From assembly GCF_000146675.1 (NCBI RefSeq), contig NZ_GL397214.1, positions 1,924,107 through 1,988,106 of the forward strand: DNA of 64,000 nt, written 5' to 3'. Origin of the DNA: Hoylesella marshii DSM 16973 = JCM 13450. Its GTDB lineage: Bacteria; Bacteroidota; Bacteroidia; Bacteroidales; Bacteroidaceae. This document shows, piece by piece, positions 8,806 to 38,815 of the stretch. The position numbers were made by a program, and so were the translations under genes. Each line of letters begins with the position of its first letter. Within the stretch, counting starts at the first letter, position 1. Under the pieces are notes generated by a model. The model searched no databases and had not been told where the DNA came from. It saw only the letters and a list, made by a program, of their open reading frames with translations.

Positions 8806-8848
8806 AATTTTTAGGTATTGTGATACTGACTGTAAAGACTTAATTTTG
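8806..8848 (+). promoter_or_regulatory. Promoter and shared haem-gene box of HmuY-LRR gene
   Basis: TAATTTTG (8841-8848) is the -7 box. ATTG (8817-8820) sits 20 bp upstream as the -33 element and is the end of TTTTTAGGTATTG (about 8808-8820). The same 13-mer, followed by a pyrimidine and G, lies at the same spacing before the hmu operon (minus strand, 38803-38815). A small inverted repeat GTAT-TGTG-ATAC overlaps it here. Confidence 0.6.
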
Positions 8849-8895: not shown

Positions 8896-10296
8896 ATGAT
8901 GAAAACTTTTGTAAAATCATCCAGCATTGCTGGTGCTTTGATGTGCGGCGTGTTCTTTTTCACCGCATGTTCGCATGATGACGACCCCACTCCCTCGCCT
9001 CGTCCGCAAGGAACGGTCAGCACGGAACTGAAAATGACTAAGAGCGGCTTCGCTTATTTCTCGTTTGCCACGAACCAAATGGTAGATGCAACAACGGCAG
9101 AAACACCGGGAACGAAGAGCTGGGACATCGCTTTCGACATGCTGAACGGTCGCACCAACAACGGTGCTGTCTACGTGACACGATACACGGACTTTGATGC
9201 TGTGAAAACAGTGAAACCCTTTTTAGAGGGAGACGCTAAGAACGAATGGCTTACCGACAGGAAAATGAATGTTATGTCGTTGCGCAGTATGCCTCCTGTC
9301 ACTGTGGAAAAGATGTGTAACCCCGCCTTTACGGAATGGTACACCATGAAGGGCATGTCGCTGTCTGTAAAGCCTACGGTATATATTGTGCGCACAGCAG
9401 ACGGTCATTACGTGAAACTCCAGTTCACAAACCATCACGGAGCCGACGGCACTTTGGGAAATATCCAATTCAAGTATGCATATATTGACGAGACAGGAAC
9501 CAATGCACTTGCCCCCGGAGAATTAGTGGTAGAGCAGCTGGAAGCCGGTAAACTGACCGAGCTACTCAAGAAGAGCAATGTGAAAGAGTTGCGCTACCTC
9601 ACCATCAAAAGCGGCAATATCAACGATGAAGACCTCGATACACTGAAACAAACAAAAACACTCGAGGTGCTCGACATCAGCGGCGCTACGCTGAAACTAT
9701 CGGATGAAAGTACCGGTTTTAAAGACTTCAGGAACATCAAGAAGCTCATTGCCCCCGCCAACCTGCAGAGTATTGCCGGTGCTTGGCCGTGGTTTATCTA
9801 CATGAGCAACCTCGAAGAGCTCGTATTCCCCGGCAATTCGCTCGAGAATATTCAAGCAGAAGGTTTTACGGGTCTGCCCAAACTGCGCAAAATCACATTG
9901 CCTTCATCGGTGCTGACCATTGGTGAGGGTGCGTTCCAAGGTGCCGGTCTGGAGGAGTTCACTTTCCCCGAGAAAGTGCAGATCATATCCAAACACTGTC
10001 TGATGAGCTGCAAAAAACTGCAAAAAGTAGTGATTCCGGCAGCCGTAAAGGAAATAAAGGCCGGTGCATTTCTCTATGACAAAGCATTGAAAGAAATCGT
10101 TTTCAAAGGAACGACACCACCCCAAAAGGCGACAAGTCCGTACGATGCTTTCTCAGACCTTCAGTTCGATGATGCCAAAGGCAACGTGTTCCTCCACTTC
10201 ATTGTGCCGAAAGGTACCATCGATGCTTATATCAAAGCATGGGGATGGGCAGCAGACGACAAGAAATACTTTCAAGAAGCCACTGACAACCCTTAA
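8896..10296 (+). CDS. HmuY-like haem-binding domain fused to BspA-type LRR, lipoprotein
   Basis: The 466-residue lipoprotein (lipobox F-T-A-C, Cys25) has two modules. Residues about 45-205 resemble HmuY: Y-F-S-F-A-T, S-W-D-I-A-F, R-T-N-N-G, and Y-V-K-L-Q-F followed by N-I-Q-F-K-Y-A-Y. HmuY proteins bind haem or related ligands outside the cell. Residues about 215-440 are LRR_5/BspA-type repeats (L-E-E-L-V-F-P, L-R-K-I-T-L-P, L-Q-K-V-V-I-P, L-K-E-I-V-F), common in surface proteins. The fusion is uncommon in my knowledge. A hydrolase lipoprotein follows after 11 bp. The promoter shares a box with the hmu operon, which supports a haem- or iron-linked role. ATG at 8899 is an alternative start. 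Confidence 0.75.
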   Translation: MMKTFVKSSSIAGALMCGVFFFTACSHDDDPTPSPRPQGTVSTELKMTKSGFAYFSFATNQMVDATTAETPGTKSWDIAFDMLNGRTNNGAVYVTRYTDFDAVKTVKPFLEGDAKNEWLTDRKMNVMSLRSMPPVTVEKMCNPAFTEWYTMKGMSLSVKPTVYIVRTADGHYVKLQFTNHHGADGTLGNIQFKYAYIDETGTNALAPGELVVEQLEAGKLTELLKKSNVKELRYLTIKSGNINDEDLDTLKQTKTLEVLDISGATLKLSDESTGFKDFRNIKKLIAPANLQSIAGAWPWFIYMSNLEELVFPGNSLENIQAEGFTGLPKLRKITLPSSVLTIGEGAFQGAGLEEFTFPEKVQIISKHCLMSCKKLQKVVIPAAVKEIKAGAFLYDKALKEIVFKGTTPPQKATSPYDAFSDLQFDDAKGNVFLHFIVPKGTIDAYIKAWGWAADDKKYFQEATDNP

Positions 10297-10307
10297 TTGA
10301 GAACTGT

Positions 10308-11660
10308 ATGAGACACAGATATAGCATTTGTCTGTACGTGTTTTTCTGTGGTATCCTCTTGCTCGGCGCTTCCTGTAAGCAGTCCGAACAGGAGGATACT
10401 CCTGTAGTTCCGGCCACGGATAGCGAGATTATCAGTTATTATCGGAGCATATCCGATGCCGAGATACCTGCCGCCCCATCGGCCGGAATGTATCGTGAGA
10501 AGATAGAACCGGCTGATGTCGGCACACAGCAACGTCGCATTTGGGAACTTTGGAAGCAGGCGCACACGGGATGGACACGCGTTTCCGACTTCGCAGGCAT
10601 GAACGCAACGTATAAAGAAACGGTATGGGAAATACCCGAAAAGGAACGCATGAAAGTGCGCCTCTTTACCAAAGGTGCCCGTCCTGCCGGAGGTTATCCG
10701 CTGATTATCCACCTCCATGGCGGCGGTTTATATGCCGATGCGCCCGGTCCGTGGGAAAGTCTGATTAACACGGAGGAGTTTGAAATCAACTTCGACCTTG
10801 CCCATCGTGTGTTCCAAGAGGGACAACCCGTGGCCTATATGGTGCCCCGTATGCCTGACGACCGCAAGGGACGATGGTATTTCCTGCCTAAGCGCGTGGC
10901 TTTCAAGCAAGCGATACAGGCGGCAGTACTTAGCGGGTTGGTGAATCCCGACAAGGTATATCTCACCGGTATCTCTGAAGGCGGGTACGGAAGTCTGCGG
11001 CTCGGCATCTTCATGCCCGACTATTTTGCCGGCGTAGGCCCGATGGCCGCTGCCGAAAAAATAAACGGAGAGGCACAGAATTACCGCAATACGGCTTTCA
11101 GAATGGAAGTGGGCGAGAAGGACTATCAATATGGTCGTGCCGACTACGCAGGTATCTGGCAACTCGAAATGAAAGCTCTGCATGAGCAGTGGCCGGAAGA
11201 TTTTGTGCACGAAGTGAATCTGCAGGCAGGACAAGGCCATGAAATAGATTATACGAAAGTAATTCCATGGCTGTTGAACTACACGCGAAGGCACTATCCG
11301 AAACGGATAACTTACCGCTATTACGACCTCGACGGCAAAGACAGCTATGCTGCCGGCGTGTACTATCTCGGCTTTCAAAACCTGCAACCCGAGAAAGGGA
11401 GCAGTTTGTTCTTCGACGTGCAGCACGATGGAAACCGCTTTGTCGTGGAAACCAAAGCAGGCCAAGGGAAGATCGGGGGCAGCTTCTGTCTCTACATCAG
11501 CGAGGTGGATTTCTCGCGTCCCATAGAGGTAACGTATAACGGGAAGACTGTTTTCCATGATAAAATAACCCCCAATGTGGGTACGATGGTAGAATCAACG
11601 GCACTCTTCGGCGATCCCTCACGCGTGTACCCTGCCAAAGTAACGCTGAAAATGCAATAG
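10308..11660 (+). CDS. Secreted alpha/beta-hydrolase (esterase-like) lipoprotein
   Basis: The 450-residue protein has a lipoprotein signal (L-L-G-A-S-C). An H-L-H-G-G-G oxyanion-type segment lies near residue 142 and the nucleophile elbow G-I-S-E-G-G near residue 223. A candidate catalytic His is in G-Q-G-H-E near residue 312. Residues about 335-450 form an extra beta-rich domain. The fold is that of PHB-depolymerase-like or feruloyl-esterase-like hydrolases; the substrate is unknown. The 11-bp gap indicates co-transcription with the HmuY-LRR gene. Confidence 0.75.
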   Translation: MRHRYSICLYVFFCGILLLGASCKQSEQEDTPVVPATDSEIISYYRSISDAEIPAAPSAGMYREKIEPADVGTQQRRIWELWKQAHTGWTRVSDFAGMNATYKETVWEIPEKERMKVRLFTKGARPAGGYPLIIHLHGGGLYADAPGPWESLINTEEFEINFDLAHRVFQEGQPVAYMVPRMPDDRKGRWYFLPKRVAFKQAIQAAVLSGLVNPDKVYLTGISEGGYGSLRLGIFMPDYFAGVGPMAAAEKINGEAQNYRNTAFRMEVGEKDYQYGRADYAGIWQLEMKALHEQWPEDFVHEVNLQAGQGHEIDYTKVIPWLLNYTRRHYPKRITYRYYDLDGKDSYAAGVYYLGFQNLQPEKGSSLFFDVQHDGNRFVVETKAGQGKIGGSFCLYISEVDFSRPIEVTYNGKTVFHDKITPNVGTMVESTALFGDPSRVYPAKVTLKMQ

Positions 11661-12047: not shown

Positions 12048-13577
12048 ATGGCAAGTATACAGGAAAAATTAGCTGAATCTCTGAAGGTGTTGAAAGATTA
12101 TCAAGACAGTCATAACAATATGATTATCAGAGGATATTCTGTGCTTGGCGATACGCATACCAAACGTCTGTTGGAAAACGGATATCTGCAGCCAATCATC
12201 AAGGGGTGGTATATGCCGTCGTTCCCAGGGAATGAGGGCGACACTACCGTATGGTATGCTTCTTACTGGCAATTTATAGCTGCATACGCCAACGGTCGCT
12301 TTGGTAACGATTGGTGCCTAACGGCAGAGGAATCGCTCTCTTTCCATGCGGGCGAAACTACCTGCCCTTCCCAATTGATAATCAAAGCTACGAAAGCAAA
12401 CAACAATATAATAAAGTTGAAGTTCGGAGATTCGCTGATGGATATCTCTGCTGCTCTTCCAAAGAATGTATATGTTGAACCGAGATACGGTATTCGCCTA
12501 TACACATTGGCGGAAGCTTTGGTTTTCTGCACACCACAGTATTTCATCTCAGATCCCTTGAATGCGAGAACATGTTTATCTCAATTGACAGATGCTTCCG
12601 AAATCATCAAGATTGTAGCAGACGAAGGCAACACAACCAGAGCTTCGCGTATCTGCGGAGCTTTAAGGAATATGGGCAAGGGAGAAATGGCAGATGAAAT
12701 TAGTTCTTTTATGCAGCGACTGGGATATAAACTTCGTGAAGAAGACCCATTTAAGGAAAAATCGCCTCTCATCGACACAATACAATCGCCCTATTCTGTC
12801 AGAACGGCTCTTATGTGGACGGAAATGAAAAAGCAAATTCAGTCTTTAGACTTAAAGCTCCAAGTTAGCTCTACTGATAAGGACATTGTTCTTGCCAATA
12901 TGGAAACCAACTATATAAAGGACTCCTATCATTCTCTTTCTATAGAAGGCTATCGCGTAACAGAAGAACTCATAGAGAAAGTAAGAGACGGCAACTGGAA
13001 TCCAACAGATAACGAAAGGGATACTGAACAGAAGAATGCACTTGCAGCTCGAGGCTACTATCAGGCTTTCGAAGCAGTGAAGGAAAGCGTAGGGACGATT
13101 TTAACGAATAACAACGCTGGTGAGACTGTTGCAAATGATTTTGACAAATGGCATTTCGAACTATTTCAACCGTGTATCACAGCAGGCATCATCAAGCCAT
13201 CGGACCTTGTCGGATACCGCAATCATCAGGTGTATATTCGAAATTCGAAGCACACACCATTAAGTCCTGATGCTGTTAGGGCTGTTATGCCCACGTTCTG
13301 TGAACTGCTCGCCAAAGAGGAAGATGCCTTCGCCCGAGCTATACTTGGTCATTTCTTCTTCGTCTATATCCATCCTTATATGGACGGCAATGGGCGAACA
13401 GCACGCTTCATTATGAACACAATGCTTGTTACTGCTGGTTTGCCATGGACTATTATTCCTGTAGAGAAACGCAAGGACTATATGTCAGCACTCGAGAAAG
13501 CAAGCGTTGAAAGAGACATCTCCGACTTTGCCAAATTCATACATACACTCATAAGCAAGGCGCAAGTTGAGCTTTAA
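12048..13577 (+). CDS. Fic-family AMPylase-like protein with AbiEi-like N-terminus
   Basis: The 509-residue protein carries the Fic core motif H-P-Y-M-D-G-N-G-R at residues 442-450, with all catalytic residues intact. The inhibitory motif S-L-S-I-E-G (residues 296-301) fits [S/T]xxxE[G/N] and lies N-terminal to the Fic core, as in class II Fic proteins; Glu300 would block ATP gamma-phosphate binding. Residues about 15-200 look like the winged-helix and following region of AbiEi-type antitoxins (R-L-L-E-N-G-Y-L-Q-P-I-I-K-G-W-Y-M). The family transfers AMP from ATP to target hydroxyls; the target is unknown. No separate antitoxin gene is adjacent. The gene is more AT-rich than its flanks, which hints at transfer. 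Confidence 0.85.
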   Translation: MASIQEKLAESLKVLKDYQDSHNNMIIRGYSVLGDTHTKRLLENGYLQPIIKGWYMPSFPGNEGDTTVWYASYWQFIAAYANGRFGNDWCLTAEESLSFHAGETTCPSQLIIKATKANNNIIKLKFGDSLMDISAALPKNVYVEPRYGIRLYTLAEALVFCTPQYFISDPLNARTCLSQLTDASEIIKIVADEGNTTRASRICGALRNMGKGEMADEISSFMQRLGYKLREEDPFKEKSPLIDTIQSPYSVRTALMWTEMKKQIQSLDLKLQVSSTDKDIVLANMETNYIKDSYHSLSIEGYRVTEELIEKVRDGNWNPTDNERDTEQKNALAARGYYQAFEAVKESVGTILTNNNAGETVANDFDKWHFELFQPCITAGIIKPSDLVGYRNHQVYIRNSKHTPLSPDAVRAVMPTFCELLAKEEDAFARAILGHFFFVYIHPYMDGNGRTARFIMNTMLVTAGLPWTIIPVEKRKDYMSALEKASVERDISDFAKFIHTLISKAQVEL

Positions 13578-28899: not shown

Positions 28900-29238
28900 T
28901 TACTCGGGCACATAAATGATTTGTCCGTTTTCCAGCTGGTAAGCAGTGCCTAACCGTTTGCCTTTCGCACCATTGTTATCGGTGGTTTCTCCCGAGGCTT
29001 TATACGTGTTTATCTGCTTTCCTTGCTTTGTAATTATCTCCATATTGTCCTTCCCTGGGTTTTTGACCACAGTAAAGTCCTCATTTCCAAAAACCTCGGT
29101 CATATTCATGTGCATCACCATGGCCACCATCAGAGAGACGGCAAACACCATGGCCACGTCGAACAGATTGACAACCACGCTCAGCGGGTCGGCATCATCA
29201 TCTACTAAAAGACGACTACCTCTTCTCCTGCGGCTCAT
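28900..29238 (-). CDS. hmuV: HmuV: DUF2149 ExbD/TolR-like protein
   Basis: The 112-residue protein has one N-terminal membrane segment (about 22-43: P-L-S-V-V-V-N-L-F-D-V-A-M-V-F) after an Arg-rich start. A periplasmic domain ending in Y-V-P-E follows, as in the DUF2149 family. It overlaps hmuU by 4 bp and has a strong AGGAGG-like site before the ATG, which decides this start over a longer frame. It is the last gene of the hmu order seen in Porphyromonas. It probably pairs with HmuU as a proton-driven energiser. Confidence 0.8.
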   Translation of the reverse strand: MSRRRRGSRLLVDDDADPLSVVVNLFDVAMVFAVSLMVAMVMHMNMTEVFGNEDFTVVKNPGKDNMEIITKQGKQINTYKASGETTDNNGAKGKRLGTAYQLENGQIIYVPE

Positions 29239-29840
29239 GGGTGTTCCTCCTTTTGATTCAGTATGCGCGCCACGTAGTCGAGGTTGTTTACGTCTTGAGC
29301 GAACCATCGTTGTTTCAACTGTAGGGTAAATAGGCCTACGGCACTGATGACCAGACCCACGACCGTTGCGGCAAAGACCACTTGCATGTTGTAGGCCATG
29401 CCGGAAATGTCGCCGGTGGAGAGGCCTACCAGTGCAGGGCTCATGGAGATAAGCGTACCGATAAGCCCGAGAACAGGGCCTAACTTGGCCAGCAGGCGTG
29501 ATAGATTCACCTCCTTGACGGTCTCAGTTTCATATTGGGTGATGAGATAGTCGGTATAGTCCTCATGGTCTTTGCCGTTGTCGAGCATGTCTTTCAGATA
29601 ACGGACATAAAGGGAGTCGGTCTTCTGCGGCAGGCTTTCCTTGAGGTTTTCGATACCGTCGGGGGTAAGGTCTTTTATGAGATGGTTGAAGCACTGATTG
29701 TTTCTGCGGCGCAGCATGAAGCCATTGTAAGTGCCGCCAAGCAGCACAAGGGCGCGCAGAAAGAAGAGAATCAACAAGATGATGTCGGGAATCAGCAGAC
29801 TGTTGGCTATCCCGAAAAGGGCACGTGATATATATTCCAT
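29235..29840 (-). CDS. hmuU: HmuU: MotA/TolQ/ExbB-family proton channel
   Basis: The 201-residue membrane protein shows the MotA/TolQ/ExbB pattern: an N-terminal membrane segment, a cytoplasmic loop, and two C-terminal segments with L-A-K-L-G-P-V-L-G-L-I-G-T-L and V-V-F-A-A-T-V-V-G-L. It likely energises the HmuR receptor or HmuS together with HmuV. Confidence 0.85.
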   Translation of the reverse strand: MEYISRALFGIANSLLIPDIILLILFFLRALVLLGGTYNGFMLRRRNNQCFNHLIKDLTPDGIENLKESLPQKTDSLYVRYLKDMLDNGKDHEDYTDYLITQYETETVKEVNLSRLLAKLGPVLGLIGTLISMSPALVGLSTGDISGMAYNMQVVFAATVVGLVISAVGLFTLQLKQRWFAQDVNNLDYVARILNQKEEHP

Positions 29841-29857
29841 TGGTTAAATGTATGATT

Positions 29858-30541
29858 TTATGATTTACGAAAAAGCCATCTGTAACGGCTGAGAAGCCAC
29901 CCTAAGCCGAAAAGGAGCGCGAAACCGCCCAATGTAAATGCGAGGGCGAGCCAATCGACAGGATGCTCTTTCACGGCGTAGACTATCTTTCCATTCTCTG
30001 TCGCTATCAGTCCGAGGATGCAGATAAAGAGCGAAAGCAACAGATGAACCTCCACCCGATGGTCGCGTTCGGGCAGAAGAAAGCGAAAACTCTCGGCGAT
30101 GAGTGGTAGCAAAAGCACCACCGCGCCGGCAAAAAGCCATGCTGTGAGGCTGAAATCAACACCCACCGCGGCAAAAAGCGTCTGGGTAAGGAGGTAGAAT
30201 ACGAGGGGAAACATGAGCAGCCCCGGGTACCAAAAGAGCACCTTCGCCCACCATTTGTTGCGTATCGTGTGGTCATCGTTTTGCAGATACGTGAGTGTAA
30301 AAGCCAAACAAAACACCGATTCGATGGTTACAATAATGGCCATGTTTTGTAAAACAGCGGTATTTTGCAGGTAGTCGGCTATGCGAGTCTTAGATTGGAG
30401 CATGGCGTAATCCATGCTCCAATAGGCAAAACCGCCTAAGACAAGGCTGTAAACGATGCGCTGCCACCACTGCCACAGACTGAGTTTCATGACGCAGTTG
30501 AGAAAGATGAACAGCAGAAGTACATAGATAATCTGTTCCAT
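29858..30541 (-). CDS. hmuT: HmuT: polytopic membrane protein of hmu operon
   Basis: The 227-residue protein has about seven hydrophobic segments and few soluble loops. Its place between the CobN-like and MotA-like genes matches HmuT of the Porphyromonas hmu operon. No catalytic motif is visible; the function is unknown. Confidence 0.7.
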   Translation of the reverse strand: MEQIIYVLLLFIFLNCVMKLSLWQWWQRIVYSLVLGGFAYWSMDYAMLQSKTRIADYLQNTAVLQNMAIIVTIESVFCLAFTLTYLQNDDHTIRNKWWAKVLFWYPGLLMFPLVFYLLTQTLFAAVGVDFSLTAWLFAGAVVLLLPLIAESFRFLLPERDHRVEVHLLLSLFICILGLIATENGKIVYAVKEHPVDWLALAFTLGGFALLFGLGWLLSRYRWLFRKS

Positions 30542-30559
30542 GACACGAGGTTAAGTGGC

Positions 30560-33500
30560 CTATCGCTCGTTTTTACGTTTACGACGGAGAATCAACAGCA
30601 TGACGATAAAAGCAGCAAAAACCATGGAAACGATGACGACACCGTTGAGTGAAGTACTCGTTTCGGCGGCATCTTCAGCAGCTTCGTCTGTCTCTTTCTT
30701 CATCACCATACTCTTACCGTTGGTCTTTCCTTGCGTAGCAACAGTCATCTGCCTGTTACGCTGCAGGTAAGTCTTTGCGCTTGCCGCAGGTGCTTTGCCC
30801 GCAATGAAGTCTTGCAGGGGACGGTTGTTTCCCTCGAACGATGAGCCGGAAGGGCCGAAACGCGTAACGAGTTCGGTGTGGAGGGTGGCGATATCGGCCA
30901 ACTGCTGTGGCGAAGCTTTCCAATAACCCTTGCGGGCAGTCTCCATCATGGTGGCGGTCATCTCTTCCATAGCAGTGGGATTCACCTTTGCAAACTGCTC
31001 CTTGATACCGAGGTCGTACTTGTCTTTGACATATACATTGTAGATTTCGTCCCACAACTCCTTGTCGATGTTCCGAGGCTTCATCACGTTCCATCCATAG
31101 GTATTTCTCACCATTTCGGCTATTTCATCGGTGGCGTTTTCACCACCGGATAGTGCACGTTTCACGTAAGATGGGTTAAGAATCTTCGTTCGGGCCTCAA
31201 CGCCGATGGCCTCTTTGCTGTCCTGCATTCTGTAATTGTTGCGATTGCGGTAATCACTGAAGTAAGCCTCGGGGTCTTTGCCCGTCACATGACGCACAGC
31301 AAGACTGACTCCACCCATGAACTCATATACATGATCGAGACTCAACGCGCCCCATGTGTTGTTCTGACGTGGCTGAACAACGACATCTGTGCGGGTGAGT
31401 GCAGCCCCAAAGGCCTCATGCACATCGTTCATCCAGTGCTCTTCGTCGCCATAAAAGGCTCCCATATTGTTGATATAGGTCTCGGCTATCTGCCGCTCAT
31501 TTGTCCAACGGTTGCCTTGTTCCACCATACCTTGAATGCCGGTGCCATAGCCTCCGCCTGCGCCCCCAAAGACACGATAGTGCGACAGCTCACGGGCTTC
31601 TTTCGGAGAAACACCTTTGTCGATAAGATAGCGTTCCGATGCTTCCACGCCAACTTTCACTTCATTGGTAAACTTGTCGTCGTCTGCCGCAGCTGCCATC
31701 TGCACAGCGCGCGTAATCAGAAAGAGACGGGAGGCAGCTAAGTCGCGCAACTGCCCCGAAGTCTGTACCACCACATCGATACGAGGTCTGCCGAGAGCCG
31801 ACGAAGGAATGAGTTTGATGTCGCTCACACGGCCATATCGGTCTCTCACCGGTTCTACTCCGAGCATGTAAAGCACCTGTGCAATGGTAGCACCACCTGT
31901 CTGTATGAACTCGCCCGACCACAGTGTGTAACTTACTTTACGAGGATATTCACCCCGATGCTTTCTCCGATATTCATCGATGGTATTCTTGGCCAAGGCG
32001 ATACCTTTCTCCCACGCATCCGGGGTAGGAGTCTCTTCGGCATTGATGGCAAAGAGATTTCTACCGGTCGGCAAGGTATTAGGATTGAGGATGAGGTCTC
32101 CACCGGGGGAAGGAGCAGTATATCCGCCATTCAAAGCATTGACAAGAGAAGCCAACTCCAAACTCGGACTCTTTACGAGCAGGTCTTTATACTGACCGAT
32201 GTTTCTCAATGAAGTCTCCACTTCCGTTACTGCATGGGCAAACTCGATATCCTTGGGGTTTAATGCGTCGGTTTCGGTTGCATGCTGCCTGCCCGCTGAT
32301 GTGTTGCCCATTTGCTTTTTAAGGCCTTCTTCCATCTTCTTCAAGGCTTCAGGGCTGGCTCCCATCTTCTTGGCCACTGCCAACATACGGGTAGGGTCTT
32401 TCTTTGCCAGCATCTTGCGCATCTGGTATCTCATGAATTTGGCTATGGGGCTGTTAGACGGAGCAGGCACTTCCATATCCTTATTCTCCATCTTTCCCAT
32501 CATACCGCCATGGGCTTTACCCTCGTGCTTCTTATCTTTCCTCGATGCCGCCATCATCATGGCCATCATGCCCTTAGGCATATTCTTCTTTTCTTCTATA
32601 TCATGAGCTTTTTGCAGTTGAGCAGTGGTGAGACCGGTGATGAGCAATAGCTGTCCATCGGTGAGCGATGAGGGATTGGTATAGAAGCGATTCACCAGCG
32701 ATTCGGCCTTTTTCAGATATAAGGCGTTGAATTTTGCCTTGTGTAAATACAGGTCGGCGGGTGCTTTTCCCTGCTGTTTGTCGAGTGAATAAAGACTATA
32801 TGCAATGGGATCGACTGTCATAGAGAAAATAGTAGACCGTATATCTTCCTGCGAATAGGGAACTCCCATGACATAAGGCGTGTCCGTTATCTTCTCAGAG
32901 GACAATTCTTCGGCATAATCAGCCAATCGTTGTAGGTCTGTATCGTTGTAAACTCTCTTCAAATCGCCATCCAATCCCAAGTCTTTATGTATGCCTAACT
33001 GTATGGCAAGCTGCTTGGCTTCCACAGCGAGGGCATGCTTATTGCCCTTGTTATTGAAGTAAGCAGAGAGTTTATCCTCTAAGTTCTTGTAGGTGTTGCG
33101 TAGCTCACTCTCGTGAAAAGCCGGTGTAAGATACGACAACAGACCAGCATATGAGCGTCGTTTGGCTATCATTGCCTCACCCACATTATCAATCGTATAA
33201 TAATAGAAGTGTGGAATTGCGCCCACAAGCCTGTCCGGCCAGTCATTGTTAGACAAGGCCACTTGCTTCTGCGGGGTAAATTCCAGACTGCCATGGGTAC
33301 CGAAATGCAGCAATGCATCTGCTTTAAATCCGTATTGTATCCAAAGATACGGGGCAATATAGCTATGCGGCGGCACCTTGTCTGTTCCATGAACAATCTT
33401 GAAAACGTCCTTCCCTTCACCGGCCAAGGGCTGCGGTATGAGGACGATATTTCCGTATCTGATGCGTGGAAAGGCCAGACGACCATCTGCTGTCTTTAGT

Positions 33501-34939
33501 TTGTTGTGGTCTCCGGGGAACTTTCCAAACTCCTTATCTACGTCTTCTATCTTTTGTTTGCGCAGGGAGGCGTGCGTCCAGCTGTCGTATTCCTGTTTGG
33601 TCACCAGCTGTGGATGCCCTGTTTTCATGTATCGGGCGACATCGCCTTCAGCAAACGAGTTAAATAAAGAACCTTCCCGAGCTATTTGTTGCTTGAATTC
33701 AGTGAGTGAAGCCGGTAGTCCCGATAGGTTATAACCTTCTTTTTTAAGGTTTAAAAGTGTGTTATAGAGCGATTGGGCTACATTCATTCCGCTGGCTACA
33801 AGATTGCTTTGTCCCGGTCCTTTGAAGTAAACGATGGCCAGCCGCTTGTCTTTGTTCTTCTTGGAGGTAAGGCGCGAATAGTTATTCACAGTCTTGATGA
33901 ATGTTTCCAAACGTTCGGGAATGGCATACGGATGCAGCAATCCGTTCTTGTCACGTGTGAGACCAAACAGTGCAGTGGTACGTATCGCACCGTCAATCTC
34001 GGGCATGACCACGCTTTGCGACAAGAAACCGCCCATCATTCCGCGAGGGTCTTTCTCCCAATCATCGGTCAATGCGTTTACATCCATTGGGTCAAAAAGC
34101 AATATATTGTTGGCTTTGAGGTATTGCACAACATCGTCTCCCAACCTTCCATGTGCGCTGTTGATGACCATATCGGGACGTATCTGCCGAATGAAGTCTG
34201 CCATATTCATAAACGAAGACACGGGATAAACGTTGTATCCCTCTTTCACCAACGCACGAACGAGGTCTGTGGGGTCGGTTACCGCACCCGAAACAACCAC
34301 TTTTTTAGCACCTTTCCTGAAAAGGCCGTGCGTCTTCATGTATTTCTCATAGCTGCTTACAGAGGTAAACTCCAGCTCTTCTTCCTCGTCATTGTCTGTA
34401 GGGAAGAAGAGATAATCCGAGGGTTTCTGTTCCGGTTTCTCCGGTGTTCCGGTGAAAATAATCTTCCCGTCCACGTTTCTACGTAAGAAACTGAGCAGAC
34501 TTCGGTTGTTCTTCCGCCTGCCACCCATCATGTATTTCTGTATGAGCGCTGTCTCTTCTACGGTGAAATTGGAAATATCGTTGTCCGGATTGGTGGCCAT
34601 CATCGTATAGACGGGTACTCCTTCATTGGCTGTCTCTTGTATCTGCTGCCGTTGTTCGGCCGTTATATTGAACCCCATGCCGTTGATGAGCACTACATCG
34701 TAATCGTCCAACGACCCCAACTCGTCGGTCTTCACATCATAGAGTTTGATGAACGGGTTATCGTCGGCCTGCGATAAGGCCTGCATCATAACGGGTTGAA
34801 AGTTTACAAGTGCGATTTTCGTGCGGCTCAACCATATATGATAGAAGCCCACAAGTAAGCCCACAAACAAGGCTAAGAGTGCGCCTAACCATATTTTTCT
34901 ATGTTTTTTAAATCCAAGTTTCTGTTTTATCTTCCACAT
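30560..34939 (-). CDS. hmuS: HmuS: membrane-anchored CobN-like haem-processing protein
   Basis: The 1459-residue protein is a CobN/magnesium-chelatase H-family homologue with conserved G-T-H-G-S-L-E-F, H-E-S-E-L-R-N and C-terminal segments. It has an N-terminal membrane anchor (about 18-36) and a second one near the end (about 1425-1450), so the large domain is likely periplasmic. CobN inserts cobalt; the HmuS branch is reported to release iron from haem anaerobically. Odd feature: residues 787-822 are a Met/His/Lys-rich insert with ten Met in 36 residues, possibly metal- or haem-related. hmuR ends 34 bp upstream. Confidence 0.9.
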   Translation of the reverse strand: MWKIKQKLGFKKHRKIWLGALLALFVGLLVGFYHIWLSRTKIALVNFQPVMMQALSQADDNPFIKLYDVKTDELGSLDDYDVVLINGMGFNITAEQRQQIQETANEGVPVYTMMATNPDNDISNFTVEETALIQKYMMGGRRKNNRSLLSFLRRNVDGKIIFTGTPEKPEQKPSDYLFFPTDNDEEEELEFTSVSSYEKYMKTHGLFRKGAKKVVVSGAVTDPTDLVRALVKEGYNVYPVSSFMNMADFIRQIRPDMVINSAHGRLGDDVVQYLKANNILLFDPMDVNALTDDWEKDPRGMMGGFLSQSVVMPEIDGAIRTTALFGLTRDKNGLLHPYAIPERLETFIKTVNNYSRLTSKKNKDKRLAIVYFKGPGQSNLVASGMNVAQSLYNTLLNLKKEGYNLSGLPASLTEFKQQIAREGSLFNSFAEGDVARYMKTGHPQLVTKQEYDSWTHASLRKQKIEDVDKEFGKFPGDHNKLKTADGRLAFPRIRYGNIVLIPQPLAGEGKDVFKIVHGTDKVPPHSYIAPYLWIQYGFKADALLHFGTHGSLEFTPQKQVALSNNDWPDRLVGAIPHFYYYTIDNVGEAMIAKRRSYAGLLSYLTPAFHESELRNTYKNLEDKLSAYFNNKGNKHALAVEAKQLAIQLGIHKDLGLDGDLKRVYNDTDLQRLADYAEELSSEKITDTPYVMGVPYSQEDIRSTIFSMTVDPIAYSLYSLDKQQGKAPADLYLHKAKFNALYLKKAESLVNRFYTNPSSLTDGQLLLITGLTTAQLQKAHDIEEKKNMPKGMMAMMMAASRKDKKHEGKAHGGMMGKMENKDMEVPAPSNSPIAKFMRYQMRKMLAKKDPTRMLAVAKKMGASPEALKKMEEGLKKQMGNTSAGRQHATETDALNPKDIEFAHAVTEVETSLRNIGQYKDLLVKSPSLELASLVNALNGGYTAPSPGGDLILNPNTLPTGRNLFAINAEETPTPDAWEKGIALAKNTIDEYRRKHRGEYPRKVSYTLWSGEFIQTGGATIAQVLYMLGVEPVRDRYGRVSDIKLIPSSALGRPRIDVVVQTSGQLRDLAASRLFLITRAVQMAAAADDDKFTNEVKVGVEASERYLIDKGVSPKEARELSHYRVFGGAGGGYGTGIQGMVEQGNRWTNERQIAETYINNMGAFYGDEEHWMNDVHEAFGAALTRTDVVVQPRQNNTWGALSLDHVYEFMGGVSLAVRHVTGKDPEAYFSDYRNRNNYRMQDSKEAIGVEARTKILNPSYVKRALSGGENATDEIAEMVRNTYGWNVMKPRNIDKELWDEIYNVYVKDKYDLGIKEQFAKVNPTAMEEMTATMMETARKGYWKASPQQLADIATLHTELVTRFGPSGSSFEGNNRPLQDFIAGKAPAASAKTYLQRNRQMTVATQGKTNGKSMVMKKETDEAAEDAAETSTSLNGVVIVSMVFAAFIVMLLILRRKRKNER

Positions 34940-34973
34940 ATCATTGTCGTTTTATTGTCGGAATGCCATCTTT

Positions 34974-37112
34974 TTATAAGTGTTTGAAGAGTTGTTCCAA
35001 TTCCACGGCTACGCCCACGGTGAACGAGGTGCCTGTGGTGAATGGCGAATTGTATTGGTATACTTTCGGCCGATAGTTGAAAAGATTGTCTATACCCAAA
35101 GTAATCTGAACGGCCTGATAGAGCCGTTGCTGCACGATAAGCCTCCAAAGACTGTATGCGGCCGAAGTGGTTTTCCTATAAGTCTTGGTCGCGGTGTCCA
35201 ACGTACTGTATGTTCCTTCCGACAGATAACGGCCGTTGAGTGTAACACTCATCTCATAGTGTTTGAAAGTCTTTCTGTAATCCACCTGTGCTGTGAATGT
35301 ATGCGGACGCGAATCAGACGTTATCGGCATGTTATGACGTGTGAACTCGTGGAAATAGGCGTAAGAGAGTTTTGCTCCGAAACCGCACGAATAGCGTGCC
35401 ACCACTGTGGCATCTACGCTGGCAAGGCTGGTTCCTTCCACATTGTAGTAGGCCATTGCGCCCTTTCCTGCATCCAAGGCAGGGTTCCAGATGGTAGATA
35501 TTTCGTTGTCCAAGATATTGTAATACCCTGTCAGTGTGAAGCAATAATTGCGATGAACGTATTCCGCGGAGGTCGAAAAGCTGTTGCTCGTTTCTGCTTT
35601 CAGGTCTTTATTACCATATATATAGAATACATTTGCCATATTGAAATTCATGTACATCTCTTTCAGAGTAGGCGCTCTGAAACCTCTGGAATAAGACCCG
35701 CGCACTTTTAAGTTGTTCAACGAATACATTCCCGCTATTTTCGGTGTCAGTTGCCACCCATAACCCGAGAAGTAATCGCTGCGCAAACCGGCCACGATAT
35801 TCCAATGATGAGCGATATTCCAGTCAGCTTGTGCAAAGATATCGGTCGAGAATTGTCTGTGTGATCCCCCATTCACGAACTGATAGGTTTGCAGATAATT
35901 GGCCATCATATCTCCGCCCATCGTCAGCGAGAGGTCTTTGTCGAAGGCATGGGTATAGAGTGCGCGCAGGGAGTTTTGCACATTTTTATAGTTGAGTATG
36001 TCTTTTTTCGTAACAGGATAGAAGTCACTTTTATCGTATCTATCAAAGTTATAAGACACATCGAGCACGTCTTTCTCGCTCAATGTACCTGCAAAGCGTA
36101 GCCCTCCGAGGAAGTCTCTCGAGCGGTCTTTACTATACGCCGACACGTTGCGCTCATGGAAATAATAGCCGGCCTTACCCGTCAACGATGTCTTGTCCGA
36201 CCACTTGTAGACCAATTTGTCCTTAAAGTTCCACTGTCGGTTGCCATACACTTGTGTGCTGTCTGCACGCCCTTTATCAAAAGCGGTATAAGATTTCATC
36301 CGGTCGGTCTGTATGTTCAGCAGGTTGGAGAACCGCCCTGTGCGCGACCCTACCTCTGCTCCGTGGCGTTGTGTACCGTATTTGCTCTCGAAATGAGTAT
36401 TGAGGTGAACGGTCAGCGGGTCAGCTGCCGACTTTGTAATGATATTGATGACTGCCCCCACGGCATTGGAACCATATAATGCGGAGGCTGCTCCTTTCAC
36501 GATTTCGATACGCTCGATGTTGTCTACATTCAATCTTCTGTAGTCCACATTGTCGAGTGTCTCACCGGCAAGACGCTCCCCATCGACGAGGAAAAGCAAC
36601 GAGAGACCGCTCAATCCCTGCATTTTCAACACTTCCTGACGGTTCATGGCATACGAATACTCTATGCCCGGAAGCTCTGCTTCCAGTACATCTCGGATAT
36701 TCGTGGCATCGAGCTTCCGTATATCGGCAGCCGTTATTACCCGTGTTACCACAGGAGTATTGGCCAGCGTCTTCTTCGTCATGGTGCCGGTCACTGTGAC
36801 CGCACCTAAGTTGATGAGGTCTTCTTTCATATACATTTTTACTTCCGTTGTGGCCGACGATGACACTTTGACGGTACACCGTTCATAACCGATAAGCATA
36901 GCCGTAAGCGTATATTCGCCCGAAGGCACGTTGAGCGTGAATCGCCCCTCTTTGTCTGCCTGCGTGGCATATTTCTTTCCCTCGGTCATCACATAGGCAA
37001 AAGGCACGGGCTTGTTGCCATCTGTTACCACGATGCCGTGTATCGGGTCGGCGAAAGTCCGCATTGAAAAGAAGAGCAGAACTGCAAACAGCGGTAAAAG
37101 TCTTTTATTCAT
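34974..37112 (-). CDS. hmuR: HmuR: TonB-dependent haem receptor
   Basis: The 712-residue outer-membrane receptor has a signal peptide and a carboxypeptidase-regulatory-like domain (about 24-95: G-Y-E-R-C near 75). A plug domain (about 110-235: G-L-S-L-L-F-L-V-D-G-E-R, G-A-A-S-A-L-Y-G-S-N-A-V-G) and a barrel follow. The F-R-A-P and N-K-D-L motifs near 485 and 511 correspond to the YRAP and NPDL motifs that HmuR needs for haem use. hmuY ends 4 bp upstream. Confidence 0.92.
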   Translation of the reverse strand: MNKRLLPLFAVLLFFSMRTFADPIHGIVVTDGNKPVPFAYVMTEGKKYATQADKEGRFTLNVPSGEYTLTAMLIGYERCTVKVSSSATTEVKMYMKEDLINLGAVTVTGTMTKKTLANTPVVTRVITAADIRKLDATNIRDVLEAELPGIEYSYAMNRQEVLKMQGLSGLSLLFLVDGERLAGETLDNVDYRRLNVDNIERIEIVKGAASALYGSNAVGAVINIITKSAADPLTVHLNTHFESKYGTQRHGAEVGSRTGRFSNLLNIQTDRMKSYTAFDKGRADSTQVYGNRQWNFKDKLVYKWSDKTSLTGKAGYYFHERNVSAYSKDRSRDFLGGLRFAGTLSEKDVLDVSYNFDRYDKSDFYPVTKKDILNYKNVQNSLRALYTHAFDKDLSLTMGGDMMANYLQTYQFVNGGSHRQFSTDIFAQADWNIAHHWNIVAGLRSDYFSGYGWQLTPKIAGMYSLNNLKVRGSYSRGFRAPTLKEMYMNFNMANVFYIYGNKDLKAETSNSFSTSAEYVHRNYCFTLTGYYNILDNEISTIWNPALDAGKGAMAYYNVEGTSLASVDATVVARYSCGFGAKLSYAYFHEFTRHNMPITSDSRPHTFTAQVDYRKTFKHYEMSVTLNGRYLSEGTYSTLDTATKTYRKTTSAAYSLWRLIVQQRLYQAVQITLGIDNLFNYRPKVYQYNSPFTTGTSFTVGVAVELEQLFKHL

Positions 37113-37116
37113 GGTA

Positions 37117-37779
37117 TCAATCCTTGAATTTTACGGGATAGATATAATCAAAGGAAATGTATCCTTTGATGTTGTATTTGTTGGGATTGGCAAACCCTGT
37201 GAAGCGAATCGCTGCTATCGTCTTGTCTTTCATCAGCAGGAGATACACTTTCTCGGAGGGCTTGTAAGCAGGAGGCATTGTGCTCATATTTACATCGAGC
37301 CATTTCCCTAACTCTTTGTTCTTTGGCGTATTCGCATAAATCACTTTGCCTTGCATCATGCCGGACATATCTACGATGATGCGGTCTGCAACATCGGGCT
37401 TGAACGAAGCATCCGACGGACGTGCATAGGTGCCGTTTCCGGCGTCGCGTCGGAAAGCCTCCAAATCTGCGTAGGAAGTTTCCAATGCCGCACCGCCATT
37501 GGTTTTGCAGTCGTAGCGGTGCAATGCGAAGTGCCATTCGGCAGGTATATCAGCCGTGTTGTCATAGAGAAGGGTTTTCTGCGACCCGTTTTTCAGGTTG
37601 AGATATACCCAGTTGGTGTACTCTGTGGCATTGATGTTGGTGTACGTATTGTCCTTTTTGTGCTGCGAGGGGTCGCCCTCGGAGGGGTCGTCATAGATGT
37701 TATCACACGACAGGAACGATAATACAATCGTCCCTGTCATGATGGATAAACATAGCGACTGTAAGAGGTTTCGTCTCAT
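37117..37779 (-). CDS. hmuY: HmuY-like haem-binding lipoprotein
   Basis: The 220-residue lipoprotein (lipobox F-L-S-C, Cys25) matches HmuY: N-W-V-Y-L-N-L near residue 56, E-W-H-F-A-L-H-R-Y-D-C-K-T-N-G-G near 81-96, and I-R-F-T-G-F...G-Y-I-S-F-D-Y at the end. HmuY captures haem and passes it to HmuR. It directly precedes hmuR. Axial ligands cannot be assigned by eye with confidence. Confidence 0.88.
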   Translation of the reverse strand: MRRNLLQSLCLSIMTGTIVLSFLSCDNIYDDPSEGDPSQHKKDNTYTNINATEYTNWVYLNLKNGSQKTLLYDNTADIPAEWHFALHRYDCKTNGGAALETSYADLEAFRRDAGNGTYARPSDASFKPDVADRIIVDMSGMMQGKVIYANTPKNKELGKWLDVNMSTMPPAYKPSEKVYLLLMKDKTIAAIRFTGFANPNKYNIKGYISFDYIYPVKFKD

Positions 37780-37823
37780 AGTCGGTATTGATGTTTTGTG
37801 ATTCGTTGGTGAAAACTCAGCGG

Positions 37824-38738
37824 TTAGTTAGCAAAGAACTGCTCAAAAGCCTGTAACACATCCTCGCGAACAGACTGCGGAGAGGGAGACTGCGGGGTTC
37901 CGAGCTTGAAGACCATGTTCAATCCGCCCATCACTGCCGGTGCCGTAAAGGTAAGTTCCGCAGCTTTCTTGGTCGTACTGATGGTTCCTTTCAGCGTGCA
38001 GTCATACTCTTTCTTAGGAGCAGAGCCCATTCCCATGAGCGATTTGCCTGTTCCTTCGAGTTCGTAGTTAGCATCTTTCTGGGTGATTTTCACGTTATCA
38101 ATCGTGCTTATACCAAAGGTCTTTCCGTCTAATACCACCTTTGCGGTCTTGTTGTCTGCATTGGCCGTTATCGATACGGTAACGTCTTTCTCGGTCATGC
38201 CGGCAAACATTGCGGAGGAAGCTGTGAGATAGCCTTTATAGACATCGGCCACGAGCATCGGTAAAGGTGCCGAGCCGTTGTTTACCGTTATCTCCAATCC
38301 GCCCATTGCAGCAGGAACGGTAAAGATAAGGCTGTAGGTTTTCTTGTCTTTACTGATGCTTCCTTTCACGTTGCAATCGTATTCAGTAGCAGCACCGCCA
38401 CCATGCGGAGCAATGGAAGCCTTGCCCATGCCTGCTAAAATGTATTGGTTGTCTTTCAGTACAAAGGTGGCCGAGGGGATGGTCATTGTGCCGAAAACGC
38501 CCATAGAGGCATAAACAATCTTTACGGTACCATCGGCATTGGCTGTTATCTGTATTTTTTGATTATCCAATGCCATACCCGAAGGCATGTATTTGAATGT
38601 GGCTTTAGCCCAACCTTGATAGGTTCCCTCAGGAGAACCGGTTGTAACGGGGTCGTCTTTGTCGTCGCCGCATGCGGTAAATGTGAGTACTGCAATCAGG
38701 AGAAAGAGGCCTTTCTCCAACCAAGTTAGTTTTTTCAT
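37824..38738 (-). CDS. Calycin-like two-domain lipoprotein, first gene of hmu operon
   Basis: The 304-residue lipoprotein (lipobox F-T-A-C, Cys23) contains two tandem related domains (about 38-165 and 166-290). Each ends in a T-x-P-A-x-M-G-G-L segment and shares an E-Y-D-C-x-x-K-G-x-I-S pattern. This fits calycin-like Bacteroidetes lipoproteins, a small barrel that may bind hydrophobic ligands. It lies 44 bp before hmuY behind the only clear promoter, so it is part of the haem operon. Confidence 0.75.
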   Translation of the reverse strand: MKKLTWLEKGLFLLIAVLTFTACGDDKDDPVTTGSPEGTYQGWAKATFKYMPSGMALDNQKIQITANADGTVKIVYASMGVFGTMTIPSATFVLKDNQYILAGMGKASIAPHGGGAATEYDCNVKGSISKDKKTYSLIFTVPAAMGGLEITVNNGSAPLPMLVADVYKGYLTASSAMFAGMTEKDVTVSITANADNKTAKVVLDGKTFGISTIDNVKITQKDANYELEGTGKSLMGMGSAPKKEYDCTLKGTISTTKKAAELTFTAPAVMGGLNMVFKLGTPQSPSPQSVREDVLQAFEQFFAN

Positions 38739-38774: not shown

Positions 38775-38815
38775 CAAAAATACGCGTTTATGGCATACCG
38801 CGCAATACCTAAAAA
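38775..38815 (-). promoter_or_regulatory. Promoter and shared box of the hmu operon
   Basis: On the minus strand TATTTTTG (38782-38775) is the -7 box and ATTG (38806-38803) lies 20 bp upstream. That ATTG ends TTTTTAGGTATTG (38815-38803), the same 13-mer found over the -33 position of the HmuY-LRR gene at 8808-8820. The direct GGTAT repeat differs from the inverted one at the other site, so only the 13-mer plus a following pyrimidine-G is conserved. Confidence 0.65.

Follow-up and report, generated by a model that had tools for sequence, protein, structure and literature searches.

A HmuY domain fused to BspA-type leucine-rich repeats and its esterase-like partner in Hoylesella marshii: a probable component of haem scavenging

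Proteins of the HmuY family have been characterised as lipoproteins that resemble haemophores and act together with the receptor HmuR. The 64,000-bp stretch of the Hoylesella marshii genome analysed here (hereafter the window) encodes a HmuY domain joined to leucine-rich repeats (LRR) in one lipoprotein, followed at short distance by an alpha/beta-hydrolase, and the locus raises the question of what a member of this family does on a repeat scaffold, beside an enzyme and with no receptor gene in its unit. The features concerned are listed in Table 1.

Table 1. Features of the two-gene cassette, the promoter element and the hmu operon, in window coordinates.
Feature	Position	Strand	Remarks
Promoter element TTTTTAGGTATTG (13-mer)	8808..8820	+	overlaps the -33 TTG; identical to the hmu promoter copy
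-7 element TAATTTTG	8841..8848	+	20 bp past the 13-mer
HmuY-LRR fusion lipoprotein gene	8896..10296	+	466 aa; ATG start; stop ends at 10296
HmuY domain of fusion	9052..9477	+	residues 53-194; PF14064, E = 1.1e-24
Met132 codon, candidate haem-iron ligand 1	9289..9291	+	column shared with G404 M144 and G750 M140; His in G777
Met154 codon, candidate haem-iron ligand 2	9355..9357	+	from sequence alignment with Tfo/PinO
BspA-type LRR region of fusion	9511..10266	+	BLAST alignments span most of the region
Alpha/beta-hydrolase lipoprotein gene	10308..11660	+	450 aa; 11-bp gap after the fusion stop
HmuT, HmuU (MotA/ExbB), HmuV (DUF2149)	28900..30541	-	HmuT without Pfam match, named by position
HmuS, CobN-like	30560..34939	-	PF02514, E = 2.5e-284
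HmuR, TonB-dependent receptor	34974..37112	-	receptor of the hmu operon
Stand-alone HmuY	37117..37779	-	PF14064, E = 2.9e-30; Met/Met type by alignment
Calycin-like protein gene	37824..38738	-	PF13944; first gene past the element, 44 bp before hmuY
hmu-operon copy of the 13-mer	38803..38815	-	upstream of hmu; full element 38775-38815

The architecture proposed in the preliminary description, a lipoprotein joining HmuY to LRR_5, is borne out by Pfam, both domains exceeding their gathering scores: PF14064 (HmuY) reaches 87.7 bits against a cut-off of 27 over profile positions 6-157 of 157, and PF13306 (LRR_5) reaches 76.9 bits against 27.7 (E = 1.6e-21) on residues 301-405 (nt 9796-10110). The HmuY part matched six distinct PDB sequences by phmmer, all of the HmuY family, the best being 3u22 (E = 9.8e-11) and 8b6a (E = 3.1e-9). 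Structure prediction from the single sequence gave a mean pLDDT of 56, with residues 1-159 below 50, and prediction from a two-row alignment of the window proteins a mean of 47; a Foldseek search with this poor two-sequence model placed HmuY-family chains at PDB ranks 1-9 (E 2.4e-3 to 3.8e-2, TM 0.32-0.38). The fusion shares LRR_5 repeats with the BspA-type surface proteins, and has a C-terminal cap like that of other Prevotella LRR proteins; it differs from them in its N-terminal HmuY domain and its conserved esterase neighbour. The lipobox of the fusion is FTAC with Cys25, and the sequence Cys-S-H-D-D-D that follows is similar to SDDDD, which directs surface export in B. fragilis (PMC5080379); the likeness, though to a signal of Bacteroides, suggests surface exposure. 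An LRR match alone is uninformative, as the whole fusion matches 97 of 100 genomes of the genus and the matches listed are mostly LRR matches; the one match in the named genome collection, Prevotella sp. DNF00663, covers residues 1-466 with 99% identity in the best segment. The fusion is a new architecture within the known HmuY family. It did not appear in titles or the first parts of abstracts searched for HmuY with LRR, with BspA, or as an orphan with a hydrolase, most subscription papers lying outside the search, and the words leucine, LRR, fused and fusion are absent from the main text of a survey of Porphyromonas HmuY proteins (PMC12106395).

The second gene encodes, as had also been read from the sequence, a secreted alpha/beta-hydrolase lipoprotein. 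Its lipobox is GASC with Cys23, and its N-terminus C-K-Q-S-E fits the Bacteroides surface-export signal less well than that of the fusion. An HGGG motif (residues 137-140) is accompanied by the candidate triad Ser223 (nt 10974), Asp272 (11121) and His311 (11238), in which the catalytic Asp and His were assigned by inference; the nucleophile lies in a G-x-S-x-G motif, and since triad and HGGG are invariant in all 12 aligned hydrolases, which were selected close homologues, the enzyme is probably active. Its family matches are all weak and all under the curated cut-offs (PHB depolymerase NF050058, E = 3.4e-8, 33.3 bits, cut-off 150; Pfam Esterase PF00756, E = 0.018, 15.3 bits, cut-off 22), and a profile match to PDB 3wyd has E = 7.7e-10. 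Hydrolase homologues occur in 36 of 299 genus genomes, the source genome included. The best genus match, a G251 protein with 39% identity (L085:5406-6977, minus strand), has no lipoprotein anchor; its C-terminal end looks like a type IX secretion signal, which would be in keeping with a surface role for the hydrolase. The family was rejected as a marker of haem loci, being found mostly without HmuY or LRR: six-frame searches of the neighbourhoods fetched from other genomes gave hydrolase matches in 27 of 27 and HmuY/LRR matches in 0 of 27 at E<=1e-4.

The suggestion that the same fusion might be sought in other genomes proved fruitful. A search of 299 genus genomes with the HmuY part yielded 52 rows from 49 genomes, the source genome included, with no frame above 330 aa except the query; among 393 genomes of the order, one strong match lay in a 491-aa frame (G404), a two-row profile search of 281 family genomes led to G777, and a hydrolase profile search across 26 genomes of the genus of G385 led to G750. 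Since the sampled genomes overlap between searches, none of which was exhaustive, these are detections and not frequencies. Both HmuY and LRR_5 were confirmed by Pfam in the three additional fusions, and the fusion lies directly upstream of the hydrolase in all four genomes that have it, at 11 bp in the window, 13 bp in G777, 38 bp in G750 and with a 43-bp overlap in G404 (counted from the first possible start). Identity to the window proteins (HmuY/LRR/hydrolase) is 35/34/33% for G404, 36/38/46% for G750 and 33/27/39% for G777, where the 5' end of the fusion is lost at the contig end and the HmuY domain is N-terminally truncated. The surroundings of the pair vary: OsmC and Fic genes lie next to it in the window (the Fic-family gene at 12048-13577, plus strand, just downstream), a fumarase-type lyase and an aromatic amino acid lyase in G404, and PH-domain, tRNA-editing and ABC-ATPase genes in G750. 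Long frames in G454 and G358 proved not to be HmuY-LRR, as did a 455-aa protein of G709 with HmuY at its C-terminal end, and a scan of viral contigs for further relatives found none. In a maximum-likelihood tree of 52 tips the four fused HmuY domains form an exclusive clade (UFBoot 98, FastTree support 0.983), so that the fusion apparently arose once among the sequences compared.

The hydrolase also occurs in company that bears on the role of the repeats. In G385 (L129:4426-7890), two tandem LRR-only lipoproteins of 322 and 338 aa, with 36% identity to the LRR of the window fusion over its length, precede the hydrolase, with no HmuY domain. Because an LRR-plus-hydrolase unit thus exists without HmuY, the role of the repeats may lie with the hydrolase and not in the adhesion proposed earlier. 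The same observation favours an explanation in which the core of the system is an LRR-esterase pair, the LRR binding substrate or acting in adhesion and the esterase attacking host or dietary esters, while HmuY is an add-on that, as in HmuY-Bf-3, binds no haem and has a structural role or another ligand; it is likewise favoured by the close hydrolases of G471, G630, G759, G754, G753 and G251, which have no HmuY/LRR match on the sequence stretches examined, and by that of G564, where the stretch is equally without match and the contig ends just upstream. We regard this explanation as unlikely, though deserving of serious attention, on account of the ligand loops of the HmuY domain and of the promoter, both described below.

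Alignment of the four fusions places Met in both candidate ligand loops of three of them and His in both for G777. The ligand-2 column, defined on the B. vulgatus protein Bvu, holds Met in G404 (M168) and G750 (M166); the window fusion is gapped there, Met154 sitting two residues earlier in a loop four residues shorter, and the second His of G777 lies two residues beyond. In one alignment, and in the first of two others but not the second, Met154 aligns with the second Met of Tfo and PinO. The likely ligands of Bvu are M145 and M172 (PMC8911585), placed here on the chain through their 27-residue spacing. The two loop histidines of G777 are the only histidines within its visible 158-residue stretch. 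This pattern, in which a paired change from Met/Met to His/His is seen in one lineage only, suggests ligation of haem iron. Binding of host haemoproteins, as the preliminary description had worded it, is not supported: the pocket looks to be of the Met/Met type, and in the relevant passages of PMC12106395 direct haem uptake from methaemoglobin is confined to P. gingivalis HmuY among the HmuY proteins, and haem binding by those of the Met/Met type is favoured by reducing conditions.

A further explanation is that the fused domain, like HmuY-Bf-2 (BfrB; 8B6A), does not coordinate iron when it binds protoporphyrin IX or haem. The fusions fall with 8B6A and the third HmuY of the source genome in a larger clade of the 52-tip tree (UFBoot 85) and share with that clade a shortened pocket loop. 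Against this, the residues Y89, M144 and Y165, required for PPIX/haem binding in HmuY-Bf-2 according to the part of PMC12106395 concerned with it, correspond to L83, V137 and a gap in the window fusion, all three being changed, and HmuY-Bf-2 is described there as having no iron-coordinating residues, where the fusions have Met or His in each of the two loops. Binding of this kind seems improbable to us. Loss of the tyrosines also counts in favour of the LRR-esterase pair as core, against which stand the Met or His kept in both loops of all four fusions; as an exclusion of haem binding it was dropped, because PinO and Tfo also do without the two Bf-2-type tyrosines.

That the two-gene unit contains no receptor, as first read, was correct, and no TonB receptor was found among the neighbours run against Pfam at the window, G404 and G750 loci, the G777 contig being short. 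That any receptor would lie elsewhere required correction, since a complete hmu haem-uptake operon, TonB receptor included, occupies 28900-38738 on the minus strand of the same window, with the receptor gene about 25 kb from the cassette and under a matching promoter. The third HmuY of the genome, at L105:8272-11363 (minus strand), is a 329-aa ORF with the domain at about residues 138-318; a TonB receptor ORF overlaps it with its end.

Comparison of the regions upstream of the pair and of hmu revealed the element TTTTTAGGTATTG-N20-TAnnTTTG, present in two copies in the window, one before each, with no others at up to two mismatches; this sharing backs the likely link to the hmu receptor that had been surmised. 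The bare 13-mer at up to two mismatches and without the -7 occurs four times in the window against a mean of 1.69 expected, a number reached in 9 of 100 shuffles and not significant, and the promoter case rests on exact copies plus the -7. The 13-mer has five exact copies in the 2.56-Mb genome (about 0.1 expected from window composition), each with the -7 at N20. They lie upstream of fldA-DUF2023, a TonB-DUF4876-DUF6850-LRR_5 operon, an ABC transporter, the cassette and hmu; with one mismatch allowed there are 15 copies, against 8 for a backward control. Element loci of the source genome include L153, L154 and L155. The exact element at L168:583-7907 (C1:447582-454906) precedes a TonB receptor, DUF4876, DUF6850 and a 521-aa BspA-type LRR protein, so that a likely iron operon includes an LRR protein here as well.

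The exact full element was found in 38 of 60 genus genomes, the source genome included, and in 0 of 60 when read backward. At the 30 of these 38 genomes for which loci are given (L170-L199; source genome included), the first ORF within 350 bp encodes flavodoxin (10), DUF2023 (5), a porin-like protein (5), a TonB receptor (3), a hemerythrin-LuxR type (2), or, once each, a methyltransferase, a heavy-metal domain, an enolase-like protein, NfeD and an unassigned product; ten and the source-genome flavodoxin were checked by Pfam and the rest judged from their N-termini, four starting more than 150 bp away. The porin-like loci are L181, L184, L192, L196 and L199; L192 has no Pfam match, and L161 of the source genome has only a weak match to Porin_O_P. 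Similar-looking proteins lie under the element at L171 and L193, that of L171 combining a hemerythrin domain with a LuxR-type DNA-binding domain. When up to two mismatches are tolerated and the -7 is required, the element occurs at 13 of 43 HmuY loci, several of them from near-identical relatives and counted irrespective of its position relative to HmuY; it occurs at none of 48 controls (29 LRR, 19 hydrolase), none of the 4 further loci of cassette type and none of 7 loci where a close hydrolase stands alone.

The cassette promoter element is thus common to known iron-limitation gene types (fldA, hmu). In the passages of PMC10434189 on low-iron responses, the fldA (flavodoxin-DUF2023), hmu and ABC-transporter loci rise in low iron, reportedly a conserved response of the three species studied, flavodoxin-DUF2023 and hmu being among the strongly induced genes, and TonB, TetR and SAM-methyltransferase genes rise in at least one. 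From this correspondence we infer an iron-limitation promoter element, a view that also counts against the LRR-esterase pair as core; support for iron control applies to the source genome only, because the element was not found upstream of the fusions of G404 and G750 and of the LRR genes of G385. Literature text searches returned no description of it as an iron-responsive Bacteroidales promoter, and among the nine papers in which TTTAGGTATTG occurs none concerns Bacteroidota by title; absence of the fusion and the element from the literature is no proof of novelty, because most subscription papers lay outside the search. The classical Fur box is reportedly not bound by PgFur (PMC6613475); for the group to which PgFur belongs, the element offers a simple sequence handle on a likely iron-limitation regulon.

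An iron-type promoter would also suit a siderophore route, in which the esterase cleaves foreign ester-type ferric siderophores presented by the HmuY-LRR protein. Fes and IroE cleave ester-type ferric siderophores, and PF00756, the family that includes them, is the sole Pfam match, though below cut-off, of three cassette hydrolases (E = 0.018, 0.0086 and 0.0021). The G750 hydrolase, however, matches Peptidase_S9 instead, also below cut-off, the PHB-depolymerase and LC-Est1C matches are stronger than that to PF00756, no TonB receptor appeared among the neighbours run against Pfam, and we know of no HmuY domain that binds siderophores; we give this route little credence.

Compared with the HmuY lipoproteins of P. 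gingivalis (HmuY), T. forsythia (Tfo), P. intermedia (PinO/PinA) and B. vulgatus (Bvu), the fusion is alike in its full PF14064 domain, lipoprotein nature, candidate two-residue iron ligation and, in the source genome, hmu-type promoter, and differs in the attached BspA LRR and in forming a separate two-gene unit with an esterase and no adjacent TonB receptor found. The orphan hmuY locus of P. intermedia is likewise a second hmuY outside the hmu operon, low-iron-induced there, with different partners, a T9SS protein and an ADP-ribosylglycohydrolase; where PMC10434189 treats this locus, it does not mention a fusion to LRR.

On balance we lean towards a surface lipoprotein that is induced by iron starvation, captures haem in the company of an esterase and probably feeds HmuR. 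Iron starvation would induce both genes as a surface lipoprotein module, the fusion acting as a haemophore-like protein on an N-terminal lipid anchor whose HmuY beta-domain would clamp the iron of haem with one residue from each of two loops (Met132 and Met154; His/His in G777). The BspA-type LRR solenoid may dock this haemophore to its partner or to the surface; the second product would be a surface serine esterase held beside the fusion, probably from the same mRNA, and captured haem would be handed on to HmuR, encoded in the hmu operon under a promoter that shares the element. A bolder version, which we consider speculative and rather doubtful, is a class of hydrolase-coupled haemophores in which the LRR-borne haem domain and the esterase, under an iron-responsive promoter, act on haem, porphyrin or ferric ligands that are esterified or bound up with lipid, and free a form that HmuR can import.

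Given a HmuY domain on LRR, a constant esterase neighbour and an iron-type promoter signature in this genome, the cassette has probably been overlooked as a contributor to haem scavenging. The fusion, which arose once among the sequences compared and keeps its esterase partner across three families of the order, points to a second, receptor-less arm of haem capture, and opens to experiment the question whether nutrient capture is the task of some of the many LRR proteins of Prevotella.
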